From Nitrospirota bacterium (GTDB taxonomy: Bacteria > Nitrospirota > Thermodesulfovibrionia > Thermodesulfovibrionales > JdFR-88), in contig JAJYLE010000004.1 in NCBI GenBank assembly GCA_021788025.1, positions 1-40,477 of the forward strand: a stretch of 40,477 nucleotides of DNA, written 5' to 3'. Positions within the stretch are counted from its first letter, which is position 1. Each line of letters starts with the position of its first letter. The notes beneath the pieces were generated by a model that saw only the letters and a program-made list of their open reading frames with translations, was not told the origin of the DNA and made no database searches. Below, one piece after another: positions 14,121 to 40,477 of the stretch. Position numbers and translations under genes: made by a program.

Positions 14121-14215
14121 TGCATTATCTCTGTGTTCGTCTTCTGGAGCCCTCGATAGTGCGCGGTGTATCAGGTGCATCAGACACCAGCGCGCCGCTC
14201 CGCGCCCCCCCAAAC

Positions 14216-14405
14216 CATGACATGAACTTCATGACATATGTCATATGGACAACGTCATGTTCAGCCGGGTTATGATGGCGGTGCCAGCGCATCAGCGCTG
14301 TAACGCGGGAGTGCGGCAAAAACGATTTCCTTAATGTCCTTTGAAAAAGATGGGGATACAGGAAAGGATTCCGGCATGGATGAAAAACTGAAATCCTTTA
14401 AAATC
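14216..14405. repeat. Dispersed palindromic repeat, copy 1
   Basis: The head at 14216-14259 is CATGAC-N9-ATGACATATGTCAT-N9-GTCATG. It has a perfect 14-bp core palindrome with outer ATGAC/GTCAT half-sites spaced symmetrically 9 nt away on each side. It is followed by CGGGTTATGATGGC (14266-14279). Weaker similarity to copy 2 continues to CTTTAAAATC at 14396-14405, 180 nt from the start (175 in copy 2). The other copies are at 35664 and 40083. The element lies about 95 nt upstream of the HI0074-type remnant. Confidence 0.85.
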
Positions 14406-14681
14406 AAGCGCTTGATTAGATCAAGGAGGTGGAACAGATGGAACAAACGGAACAAAAATTCCGGCCCTAAGTGGCCGGAAGCAAAAGAAAATCCAGAAAT
14501 GGCTGGAACATATAAAAAGAAAGGCGCCGGGCGGCGCAAGTGACGGATAAAGAATCGGGACACTATTCCGGGGTAAAGCCGGCGCACCTCGTGCCGTGGG
14601 CGGCCCTTTTCCCGGCGATTGGGTTAAAATAGAAGCCAAACATCTTAACTCACAAAAACACACAGGGGGGAAGCCTGGAAA
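14282..14681 (+). other. Intergenic region with palindrome, strong Shine-Dalgarno and a 10-codon frame
   Basis: No clear gene is seen here. AATCAAGCGCTTGATT at 14402-14417 is a perfect 16-bp palindrome. Directly after it, AAGGAGGT (14423-14430) is an ideal ribosome-binding site 7 nt before ATG 14438, but that frame holds only ten codons (MEQTEQKFRP, stop at 14468-14470). Its end coincides with a hairpin, TTCCGGCC/GGCCGGAA around CTAAGT, near 14459-14480. A longer overlapping frame (14334-14543, 69 aa, very basic, Trp/Asn/Lys-rich) has no recognisable family. GGTTAAAAT near 14622 may be the -10 of the next gene. Confidence 0.3.
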
Positions 14682-35405: not shown

Positions 35406-35663
35406 CTGCTTAGTTTATTTTAACGTTGCGCAATGAATTCCGGGGCCACATTACTTGTCTCCGGATAAGCCTTTTTGCAATCTTTCATCCCGTTGGAAAC
35501 CTGCACTATCATAACAAAATTATCATATGCGGTGTATAGGGCGAAACTTTAGCCTTGTCGGGAGTCATCGATTTTGAAGAGACGAAGGGAAAGTCTTCAG
35601 TTTGTAGAATCGTGATGACTCTCAGATTCAACAAACGGCGGCGGATGCCTTCTTTCCAAAAAT

Positions 35664-35848
35664 CATGACACGAACTTAATGACATATGTCATATGGACTA
35701 TGTCATGGTCCGGCGGGTTATGATGGCACTGGAAGAAGGGGTAAAAAGGATTTCAAAGCAAAAGCGGCGTAAATCAAAAAATCCGCAAAAACAAACAGTT
35801 AGGGATGTTCCAAGGAATTCCACTGTTAAATTCAAACCCTTTAAAATC
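35664..35848. repeat. Dispersed palindromic repeat, copy 2
   Basis: The head at 35664-35707 is CATGAC-N9-ATGACATATGTCAT-N9-GTCATG, with the same spacing as copy 1 and nearly the same N9 sequences (ACGAACTTA; ATGGACTAT). GGGTTATGATGGC follows. Weaker similarity to copy 1 runs to CTTTAAAATC at 35839-35848, 175 nt from the start against 180 in copy 1. Confidence 0.85.
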
Positions 35849-35929
35849 ATGCTGTTACAGGCGGAAAACAGTTTGGAAAAAAGCCGGATGTTTGAACGGT
35901 TGAACAGCAAATTTCTAAAAAAGCCTTAA
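35693..35929 (+). CDS. Possible small basic protein starting inside repeat copy 2
   Basis: The frame starts at the ATG directly after the 14-bp palindrome and encodes 78 aa, beginning MDYVMVRRVMMALEEGVKR and continuing with a Lys/Arg/Gln-rich segment (KQKRRKSKNPQKQ). No family is recognised and there is no Shine-Dalgarno. In copy 1 the equivalent start reads MDNVMFSRVMMAV but soon stops. Near the end of both copies a K-x-K/F-x-FKI peptide is shared, although in copy 1 it is in a different frame block. This could mean a decayed small gene carried by the repeat, or simply an open frame in it. Confidence 0.2.
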   Translation: MDYVMVRRVMMALEEGVKRISKQKRRKSKNPQKQTVRDVPRNSTVKFKPFKIMLLQAENSLEKSRMFERLNSKFLKKP

Positions 35930-36001
35930 AATCAAGAGCTTATGAATTCCAGATTGAACACTAAAAAAAAGGCGCAACGGAGTTGAAAAGGGGCCGTTTC
36001 C

Positions 36002-36060: not shown

Positions 36061-38352
36061 ATGAATACTGATAAGCCATCCGGATGGAGAGCGGCCCTTG
36101 CCGTCTTTTCCGCCTACTCGCTTTTATCGGTTGCGATGACGTGGCCGGTTGTCCTTCATTTTACAAACTACACCATGGGCGACGGAATGGACGACCAGCA
36201 GTTTCTCTGGAATTACTGGTGGGTAAAGCACGCCATTGTGGACCTGAAAACCAACCCTTTTTTCACCGATTACATGTTCTACCCCCACAGAAACGGTTTG
36301 GCCCTGCATACCCTTTTGTTTCTTAACGGGCTTTTTTCCATTCCCCTTCAATATTTCCTGACGCTTCCAGCCATATACAACCTCTTTGTCCTGCTCTCTT
36401 TTGCCCTTTCCGGGCTGGGGGCATTCCTGCTGGCCAGGCGTTTTGTAAAGGGCTGGAAGGCCGCATTCGCCGCCGGGCTCATATTCGCCTCATACAGGTG
36501 CGTTTACATACGCATCGGATGGGCAAACATCTGCTCGGCCCAGTGGGTGCCATTTTACCTTCTCTTTCTTCTAAAGGCCCTCGATAAAGATTCCGGCAGG
36601 CTGAAATTTTCGATATTCGCAGGCATCTTCCTTGTGTTCAATTTCTTCTCCGATTATTACCACTTCCTTGCGTGCTGTATTTTTACGCTGATAATCCTGG
36701 TGATTTATTGGACCTCTAAGGCGCTGAGGCCGGCGGAACTTGCAAAGAGGTTCCTGCCCGCAGTACTTGTTTGCGTGCCTTTTATCTCTCCGGTAATGTA
36801 CTGGGCGCTCCGCGAAGGCGCGGCGGGGCAGGGCCTTGGCAACATAAGCTGGAAATCAACCGGCATTGCTAAAAACGTGGCCGATATCGCGGGGTTCATT
36901 TCACCCCATCCGGCAAACCCGTTTCTTGGAAGGCTATCATTGTCAAAATACTTCACAGGCGAATGGAACTATTGCTACCTGGGGGCAGCCGCCATAGTTT
37001 TTTCAGTTTACGCATTTTTGCAACACCGGAAAAACAGGGGCAAGATTGCGGACGGCCCTCTGCGCCGCGAAAAACTGGAACTAATGCTCTGGGGCATTTC
37101 AGCCGCGGTCTTCATGATACTGGCGATGGGCCCGTATCCGCACTTCTTTGGGAAGCAGATACCCGTGCCGCTGCCTTTCAAGCTGTTTGAGCTTAGCGGT
37201 TTCCTTTCCGGCCTGAGGGCCCCGGACCGTTTCAGCATCTATGCTGTGCTGGCTGTTGCGATGCTGGCATCCATTGGCATGGAACGGGCGTTTGCAAAAA
37301 AGAAATTTCTTTTTGCGCTGATCATTCCGGTAATACTGGTCGAGTACACAACTGCGCCATATCCTCTTTACAACTGCGCCATACCCCCGGTTTACAATAC
37401 GATAGCGGCGGACAAGGAGGCGCAGTCCATTCTGGAGATACCCGTTTTCCTTCAGTACGGTATCGCCCACTCCGGCTACCCGGCGGACTACGTGCTTTAT
37501 TACCAGACGTTCCACGGGAAAAAACTCTTTAATGGATACCTCTCACGCGTGCCGGATGCAACCATCTATTCATACTTCAATCTGCCAATATACCGGAGCC
37601 TTCTTGAAATCGGGTATCTGGAGTCCAACGGGCAGGCATTGAGGCTGGCGATGGAAACAGACCGCCAGGTTGCGCCCGGTTTCATAAACCTTTTCGGGGT
37701 GGGTTATGTGGTTGTGCACCGGATGCCGTTTGCCCAGACGCGGGCAGCGATGGACGTGGACGCCATGGAGCGGTATTTAAACAATGTGCTGCCCATGAGC
37801 AAGATTTACGACGACGGAGTGCTTGCCGTGTACAAGACACAACTGGCGGAACAGAAGGATGTTATTGTGGAAGCCGCCACTAACGCCTCCGTTTTATATC
37901 TGTATAAAGGCTGGGTTAACGGGCTTTCAGAAGGCGGCTACGGTTACGCCTTGTGTGCCGGAAAAAAATCCGTGCTCCTTGCCAATCTCAGGCAGGCAAC
38001 CGGCTATGAGATGGACCTTGACCTGAGCCCCGCCCCTGGAATCAAGGACAAGCGCGTTGAGGTGGGGATTAACGGCAAAAAGATCGGCAGCCTGCCTCTC
38101 AGGGACGGCTGGAACACTTATAAAATAGACATACCCGCCAATATGCCAAGGCAGGGGCTTAACAGGATTTATTTCAAACCTGCTGAAACGGCCAGGCCGG
38201 CAATGCCGTTTAAAGGGATATGGCCAGCTTTCGCCATAAGCCGGAGCGTGCCAGATTATCCTTTAGACTGGGAGCAGGACAATTCCAAGTTCGGCCGCCC
38301 GGGGATTTCCTTTGCACTCCACCGGTTCGAGATAAAAGAGAACCCCTGGTAG
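36061..38352 (+). CDS. Large polytopic membrane protein, GT-C glycosyltransferase-like
   Basis: A 763-aa protein with 10-12 TM helices in the first 430 residues and a soluble C-terminal domain of about 330 residues. The first extracytoplasmic loop carries acidic motifs typical of GT-C enzymes: YTMGDGMDDQQFLWNYWWVKHA (Asp near 40-44) and PFFTDYMFYPHRNGLALHT. These resemble PMT/ArnT-like or YfhO-type proteins that transfer sugars from polyprenyl phosphate to a lipid or protein acceptor in the periplasm. The C-terminus contains VGYVVVHRMPFAQ and a beta-rich part (VEVGINGKKIGSLPLRDGWNTYKIDIP) like a carbohydrate-binding domain. It is monocistronic. The substrate and acceptor are unknown, and no polysaccharide cluster surrounds it. 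Confidence 0.75.
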   Translation: MNTDKPSGWRAALAVFSAYSLLSVAMTWPVVLHFTNYTMGDGMDDQQFLWNYWWVKHAIVDLKTNPFFTDYMFYPHRNGLALHTLLFLNGLFSIPLQYFLTLPAIYNLFVLLSFALSGLGAFLLARRFVKGWKAAFAAGLIFASYRCVYIRIGWANICSAQWVPFYLLFLLKALDKDSGRLKFSIFAGIFLVFNFFSDYYHFLACCIFTLIILVIYWTSKALRPAELAKRFLPAVLVCVPFISPVMYWALREGAAGQGLGNISWKSTGIAKNVADIAGFISPHPANPFLGRLSLSKYFTGEWNYCYLGAAAIVFSVYAFLQHRKNRGKIADGPLRREKLELMLWGISAAVFMILAMGPYPHFFGKQIPVPLPFKLFELSGFLSGLRAPDRFSIYAVLAVAMLASIGMERAFAKKKFLFALIIPVILVEYTTAPYPLYNCAIPPVYNTIAADKEAQSILEIPVFLQYGIAHSGYPADYVLYYQTFHGKKLFNGYLSRVPDATIYSYFNLPIYRSLLEIGYLESNGQALRLAMETDRQVAPGFINLFGVGYVVVHRMPFAQTRAAMDVDAMERYLNNVLPMSKIYDDGVLAVYKTQLAEQKDVIVEAATNASVLYLYKGWVNGLSEGGYGYALCAGKKSVLLANLRQATGYEMDLDLSPAPGIKDKRVEVGINGKKIGSLPLRDGWNTYKIDIPANMPRQGLNRIYFKPAETARPAMPFKGIWPAFAISRSVPDYPLDWEQDNSKFGRPGISFALHRFEIKENPW

Positions 38353-40001: not shown

Positions 40002-40082
40002 CGCCTTCGGCCAGTTAAAACTTTATGTCCCAAAGCAGCCCCCTTTCAGGGATTTAAAGATCATGCAGATAATTTTTCAAAA

Positions 40083-40145
40083 CCTGGCATGAACTTTATG
40101 ACATATGTCACATTAACAATGTCATGCCGCCCGGGTTAATGTTTG
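40083..40145. repeat. Dispersed palindromic repeat, copy 3 (head only)
   Basis: ATGACATATGTCA (40098-40110), a 9-nt spacer ATTAACAAT and GTCATG (40121-40126), then CCGGGTTAATG-like sequence. The left N9 (ATGAACTTT) matches copies 1 and 2. The outer left half-site is degenerate (CCTGGC for CATGAC), and the last base of the core palindrome is C. The downstream similarity seen between copies 1 and 2 is not evident here. Confidence 0.75.
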
Positions 40146-40477
40146 AGTGCGGCCTCACTCCAACCCCCGATGTGACGGTCCAAGAACCCGGCCTGATGCA
40201 CACCGCTCTTTGAAAAGATAGTCGAGACTTTTACACATGCAATTTTTTTGTGTTGCAGAACACAATCCTTATGGCGTAAAAAAGCGGAGGCAAAGGAACA
40301 AAAAAAAGCATAAAAACTCTTTAAAAACCGGGATTTCCCACCTCCGGAGCGAACACGCAAAAAAAGAGCATAAAAACCAGCCGCCTTGCCGCCCGCAATT
40401 TAAGGCTGCAAAAAGGTACAAAGGATTGACAAAGGTACAAAGGTATGCCATATTATCGCATCGGAGATTTAGTCTCC
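40146..40477 (+). promoter_or_regulatory. Gene-free right end with outward promoter in direct repeats
   Basis: No gene is supported here. A hairpin TTGTGTT/AACACAA lies near 40250-40267. AGCATAAAAAC occurs twice exactly 60 nt apart (40307 and 40367). AAAGGTACAAAGG is repeated at 40412-40424 and 40431-40443 (19-nt period). TTGACA (40426-40431) sits between and into these repeats, and TATTAT (40451-40456) is 19 nt downstream. This looks like a regulated promoter for a gene beyond the window. Confidence 0.45.

Follow-up and report, generated by a model that had tools for sequence, protein, structure and literature searches.

A stretch of 40,477 nucleotides from a draft Nitrospirota genome (G000; 2.53 Mb), hereafter the window, contained three copies of a bipartite element, about 50 copies of which are dispersed in that genome. 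Each part had its own architecture: a head, resembling a late-type promoter, and a tail that would be a protein-assembly site. The account in which both belong to one regulon with a domesticated Mu-like capsid module is, in our estimate, about 50% probable; to our knowledge, no such dispersed regulon has been described. At the level of sequence, the analysis established the architecture and number of the elements, their promoter and its sharing with the capsid module, the selection acting on them, and the pattern of co-occurrence; all of it was based on draft MAGs, among them those of the sister species G001 (MAG WY4.bin81) and of G057 (CSMAG_1946), which belongs to another family.

Profile models identified at least 48 heads and at least 45 tails in G000, with the same minimum numbers in G001. 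The core palindrome of the head, ATGACATATGTCAT, had 52 matches with two or fewer mismatches in the G000 genome (16 exact copies), as compared to one for the reversed-pattern control, and ATGACNNNNGTCAT was exact at 39 places among the matches listed; taken together, these counts place the repeat far above chance. A literature search for the palindrome string returned no match. The sequence-only reading, which had proposed a dispersed family from the three copies in the window, was thus borne out by about 50 more in the genome. Its description of copies 1 (14216) and 2 (35664) as CATGAC-N9-ATGACATATGTCAT-N9-GTCATG, with half-sites spaced 14-9-14 nt, was accurate, as were a conserved (C)GGGTTATGATGGC 3′ of the palindrome in both and the intergenic placement of copies in gene-poor surroundings. 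Copy 3 (40083), which had been assigned the same pattern, was a genuine but degenerate family member, with CCTGGC as outer-left half-site, GTCAC at the core end, and TTAATG in the −10 region instead of TTATGATGGC. Elements were 200-850 bp in size and carried one short ORF or none, without an integrase.

The head consensus over 42 copies was AAAACCATGACATGAACTTCATGACATATGTCATATGGACAATGTCATGnTnnGCCGGGTTATGATGGC. It comprised three tandem 14-bp operator units, namely a left half with ATGAC, a perfect dyad, and a right half with GTCAT, which explains the 14-9-14 half-site spacing. The operator stack overlapped a predicted sigma-70 promoter (T(G/T)GACA and TATGAT, separated by a 19-nt spacer), such that, as in Mu late (Mor/C) promoters, a sigma-70 −10 element was accompanied by a dyad, the candidate activator site, at the −35 region. 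Specifically, the copy 1 head (14210-14282; 77.3 bits) had its operator stack at 14216-14259, the central perfect palindrome ATGACATATGTCAT (operator unit 2, the core counted across the genome) at 14231-14244, and its promoter in TGGACA (−35-like, 14246-14251) and TATGAT (−10, 14271-14276), again with a 19-nt spacer. The heads of copy 2 (35658-35730; 74.6 bits), which had an orthologous copy in G001, and copy 3 (40077-40149; 54 bits), with its degenerate outer-left half-site, were likewise on the forward strand. A shorter head variant did not have the middle operator unit. Heads in G039 contained two to four TGAAACATTTCA units and that of G057 read CTGACACGTGTCAT, indicating that the head architecture is kept while the half-site differs between genera. 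Three operator units over a promoter, with half-sites under purifying selection (see below), agree well with the earlier suggestion of a multimeric protein site.

Tails, located 200-450 bp downstream of heads, combined three direct repeats of NNGAAC with an IHF-consensus site and an A-run. A same-strand tail was present within 900 nt downstream in 37 of 43 heads, and in none in the control direction. The repeats started at 0, 9-10, and ~64 nt, near whole helical turns, and the prefix NN was identical in all three repeats of 37 out of 50 tails, against a shuffled mean of 9.6 and a count unreached in 5000 shuffles. In G000 the uniform tails formed two classes, TG (18) and TT (19). The exact IHF consensus was found 14 times in 10 kb of elements versus once in 44.6 kb of flanks, its specified bases were less diverged, and its place was fixed, following the second repeat and preceding the third in TT tails but lying 5′ of all three in TG tails. 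Based on these features, the tail looks like a protein-assembly site, with the helix-turn-helix (HTH) protein of the element and IHF as candidates for binding there. A role as CsrA sponge via GGA repeats was considered and ruled out, as other tail classes read TTGAAC or TCGAAC.

Within the window, the copy 1 tail (14430-14521, forward strand; 55.5 bits) had TGGAAC at 14430 and 14439, CGGAAC at 14448, and TGGAAC at 14504, followed by TATAAAAAG, and was present in the sister genome with a conserved right flank. Its exact IHF consensus, AATCAAGCGCTTG (WATCAANNNNTTR), at 14402-14414 on the forward strand, corresponds to the CTTTAAAATC to which copies 1 and 2 had been thought to remain colinear; that colinearity was present, but the elements extend beyond it, to the tails. 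The copy 2 tail (35892-35970, forward; 44.8 bits) had TTGAAC at 35892, 35900, and 35954 before its A-run, with AATCAAGAGCTTA, an exact match to the IHF consensus, separating the second repeat from the third (35930-35942, forward), while the copy 3 tail (40295-40365, forward; 22.3 bits) was degenerate. Directly after copy 2 was an ORF of 763 aa (36061-38352) without a Pfam or PHROG match.

In two G000 copies, head and tail flanked a gene for an HTH protein; the tail was of the TG type in one and of the TT type in the other, matching the two tail classes of this genome. Few copies carry the gene and most elements do not. Some G039 copies still had both extremities of the HTH gene but not its middle, which makes deletion from an HTH-encoding element the best reading of the copies without the ORF. 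The recognition helix varied with the repeat, VHRI being found with TGGAAC, VHNI mostly with TTGAAC, and VHTI with ATGAAC, a correspondence comprising few independent changes and having exceptions in a few VHNI copies with other repeat prefixes. Between G000 and G001, omega was 0.08 for HTH-b and 0.41 for HTH-a. From what is known of the family, the HTH protein probably binds the tails. Neither its family nor its fold could be matched significantly to a small terminase, a PDB profile search returned short HTH-level matches only, its single-sequence fold was poor (pLDDT 51), and neither the HTH profile in IMG/VR nor the protein in phage records yielded a match.

Both the heads and the distribution of the HTH protein connected the elements to a Mu-like capsid module. 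In G000 (contig C81) a perfect head was followed by an M15 endolysin, a gp26-like protein, a small protein, TerL (PF03237/PF17289), a Mu portal (PF06074), and gp36 (PF07030); this cluster was read to the contig end, and tail genes lie beyond. The same gene order was located behind the G057 version of the head in that genome. Heads were hence common to the elements, the HTH genes, and the capsid module, all of which have the predicted promoter in common. TerL was present in 18 of 101 relatives (omega 0.30 for G000 versus G001), and the HTH protein in nine, all within those 18. Moreover, tails were found in all nine HTH-bearing genomes, each with TerL, versus none of the nine TerL genomes without the HTH protein, these being per-genome counts that ignore kinship.

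The small terminase (TerS) of the G000 module, at 77 aa, did not have an N-terminal HTH. The ORF before TerL was 80-120 aa in most relatives, while that of viral relatives of TerL was 125-213 aa in the cases read and often had an HTH-like start. HTH loss and the presence of elements did not match exactly, as module TerS with an HTH occurred in G002, G008, and G011, which are also element-bearing. Mu-transpos_C (PF09299) was not found in G000, the head and tail models did not match viral relatives of the Mu-like terminase, and the head pattern had no match in IMG/VR.

Mor/C-family genes (PF08765) were present in 10 of 11 head-bearing genomes. In phage Mu, the gene order is C, Plys, lys, and we observed the same order in G018, where only a few bases separate the end of a Mor/C gene from a head that is followed by the endolysin; in G066, a Mor/C gene was near the head. 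Mu C sites either overlap the −35 element or are found upstream of it (PMC4461284). In G000, G001, G003, and G004, Mor was next to a cysteine synthase gene and to a divergently oriented CI repressor that has an S24 domain, and the conservation of this locus indicates vertical inheritance. Mor had a dN of 0 between G000 and G001. Knowledge of the family makes it probable that Mor/C acts at the heads. Another candidate regulator was a LuxR gene that diverges from the capsid module in G000; its homologues were beside only two other modules, and Mor is therefore preferred. Repressor, Mor activator, and heads appear to form one regulon, which is the simplest account.

In the working that we propose, the CI/S24 repressor would hold down the Mor/C-family activator, and upon its release the activator would bind the heads, such that the capsid module and all elements would be switched on together. 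Full-length elements would then produce the small HTH protein, which would bind the GAAC repeats of its own tail class, with IHF bending the DNA, and thereby mark ~50 dispersed places. The HTH protein would also supply the DNA recognition that is missing from the HTH-less small terminase of the module. As this terminase has no HTH, a packaging start is the most economical function for the tails, and their triple-repeat site resembles the start site of DNA packaging in viruses. That tails serve as dispersed, cosB-like packaging-start sites of a GTA-like particle is the role that we consider most likely, although tentatively, at somewhat less than even odds. More tentative again is the fuller scenario, in which packaging by such a particle is directed by ~50 dispersed cosB-like sites and the element HTH proteins, after TerS of the capsid cluster lost its DNA-recognition half. 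HTH loss is a proposed mark of GTA small terminases, and the prevailing view is that GTA particles take up host DNA randomly, discrete packaging start sites not being known (PMC6854486). If the tails are packaging sites, the host would choose which parts of the chromosome leave.

The same tail features could be read as dispersed replication-start or partition sites, in which GAAC iterons, an IHF site, and an A+T-rich run are served by an HTH initiator. Iteron-like direct repeats combined with an IHF site and A-run are in keeping with this, as is co-regulation with the capsid module, which would suit amplification before packaging. However, the repeats number only three and the HTH protein had no initiator-type domain, and we consider this alternative unlikely.

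We also compared the elements of G000 and G001, using this single pair of close species. Since the search for ortholog pairs used the head pattern, conservation of the core half-sites is biased; the GAAC cores, A-run, outer-left ATGAC, and −10 element were not part of that pattern. Changes were seen at 1 of 280 GAAC core sites, 1 of 153 A-run sites, and 4 of 132 outer-left ATGAC sites, and in the −10 element (TA---T; 27 ortholog pairs) the three specified bases had 0 changes in 81 while the middle three had nine in 81. The DNA from head to tail had changed at 373 of 3644 sites (~10%), and that just left of the head at 139 of 1192. The GAAC cores and −10 bases thus bear the signature of strong purifying selection while the head-tail interior drifts, such that ORF-less copies are maintained as two ends, not as one RNA sequence.

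These data, together with position, weigh on the possibility raised earlier of a MITE-like element, according to which the copies would be relics of a mobile HTH element, non-autonomous, formerly spread, and now functionless. ORF-less copies do exist and look like deletion derivatives, including the G039 copies with the HTH gene middle deleted, and copies are dispersed with random orientation to neighboring genes. Nevertheless, no target-site duplication was detected at the elements (mean match 4.89 versus 5.06 when shuffled), 27 matched copies occupied the same places in both sister species, both ends were under purifying selection, and the HTH protein had no recognizable transposase domain. 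Such relics are therefore rather improbable. Empty sites were sought through the species pairs and a flank search for copy 1, in which the element and its right flank were shared with G001, while the left flank was on a different contig.

The interior also bears on a third suggestion, that of a regulated non-coding RNA family whose transcripts would start at the head promoter and carry a boxA-like GCTCTTTGAAAA leader as well as a 5′ hairpin. In its favor, the sigma-70 −10 was conserved, leaders folded better than shuffled sequences (mean z −1.7; 21 of 28 below −1), and GCTCTTTGAAAA had 29 exact occurrences in the G000 genome against 0 for the control and 3.3% divergence between G000 and G001. 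The motif took the form GTCCTTTGAAAA behind the leader hairpin of copy 1 (14336-14347, forward strand) and GCTCTTTGAAAA in copy 3 (40205-40216, forward). Against it, the DNA between head and tail was ~10% diverged, near the level of adjacent intergenic DNA, Rfam returned only a tmRNA in the window and no match for the elements, and the helical-turn spacing and IHF site of the tail are traits of DNA sites. A predicted promoter, a 5′ hairpin, and the motif are present, but an RNA family as the function of the element is improbable. We note that GCTCTTTGAAAA behind its GC-rich leader hairpin is a look-alike of the rrn boxA antitermination signal, in the window (14336-14347, 40205-40216) and at its other exact places in the genome. 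Finally, ordinary operators of a host regulator acting on adjacent genes, a reading that the symmetric operators and apparently functional promoter (conserved −10) would accommodate, are highly improbable and largely refuted by gene orientation and tail linkage, since neighboring genes lie in all four orientations, many of them convergent, and the head precedes its own tail, not a gene.

The regulon account has partial counterparts in several known systems. As in the Mu late promoters (Plys, PI, PP, Pmom), dyads (here candidate activator sites) are upstream of or overlap the −35 element and the spacer is long, and the promoter of endolysin and head genes is immediately preceded by a Mor/C gene in G018 and has one nearby in G066. 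Unlike those promoters, the half-sites here are ATGAC/GTCAT, there are ~50 chromosomal copies, most not driving a virion gene, and in the family of G000 the activator gene is at a separate host locus. With the gene transfer agent RcGTA, the system appears to share a domesticated capsid cluster, ectopic regulatory loci, and purifying selection, and like RcGTA it has a small terminase without an HTH domain (PMC6854486); it differs from RcGTA in having Mu-like capsid genes, dispersed repeat sites, and HTH proteins. The known arrangement closest to the tails is lambda cosB, which has three sites for the small HTH-bearing terminase; two of these flank an IHF site, and the middle R site is inverted (PMC4669245). 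The tails are similar in their triple repeats and IHF consensus, although the binding partner here is putative. Unlike in cosB, all three repeats are direct with a GAAC core, no cosN was identified, there are many chromosomal copies, and in TG-type tails the IHF site is not flanked by repeats but precedes all of them. Minimal phage satellites of the PICI type respond to late promoters, carry a packaging-type gene and site, and depend on the capsid of another element. The predicted late-promoter response, the possible packaging-type gene and site, and the putative reliance on a capsid encoded elsewhere are akin to these, whereas the elements described here have one short ORF or none in 200-850 bp, no integrase, and vertically kept positions.

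Several additional features were observed near heads, elements, and related loci. Two heads (L030 and L038; G000:C147 and C16) preceded long secreted proteins with an ADTVHYGG start, possibly particle adhesins, one of which had the tail-fiber-like motifs FNGRTGAV and DVRAYGA. A second Mu-like locus (L240; G001:C10:1-20000) with two Mor genes and a divergent TerL (64%) is possibly a true prophage. A LuxR-type regulator adjoined the capsid module in three genera (L138 1322-1828, L244, and L250), and a reverse-transcriptase-like gene (L330 769-1593; G001:C53) was close to the CI-Mor locus. Within one element, a gene similar to REP-type tyrosine transposases (MDYRRSLAKGASFFFTVVTENRR...) was accompanied by its own palindromes (L033 1486-2000; G000:C197). 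Indels of 310-350 bp near heads, considered as element modules, proved instead to be a separate repeat inserted in the tail A-run. This dispersed repeat (~310-350 bp; GGCGTTCGCCG...GCGGTGTTCG...) was in or next to the terminal A-run at L104, L119, L120/L001, L107/L014, L013, and L032, in one species only, and may be recently mobile.
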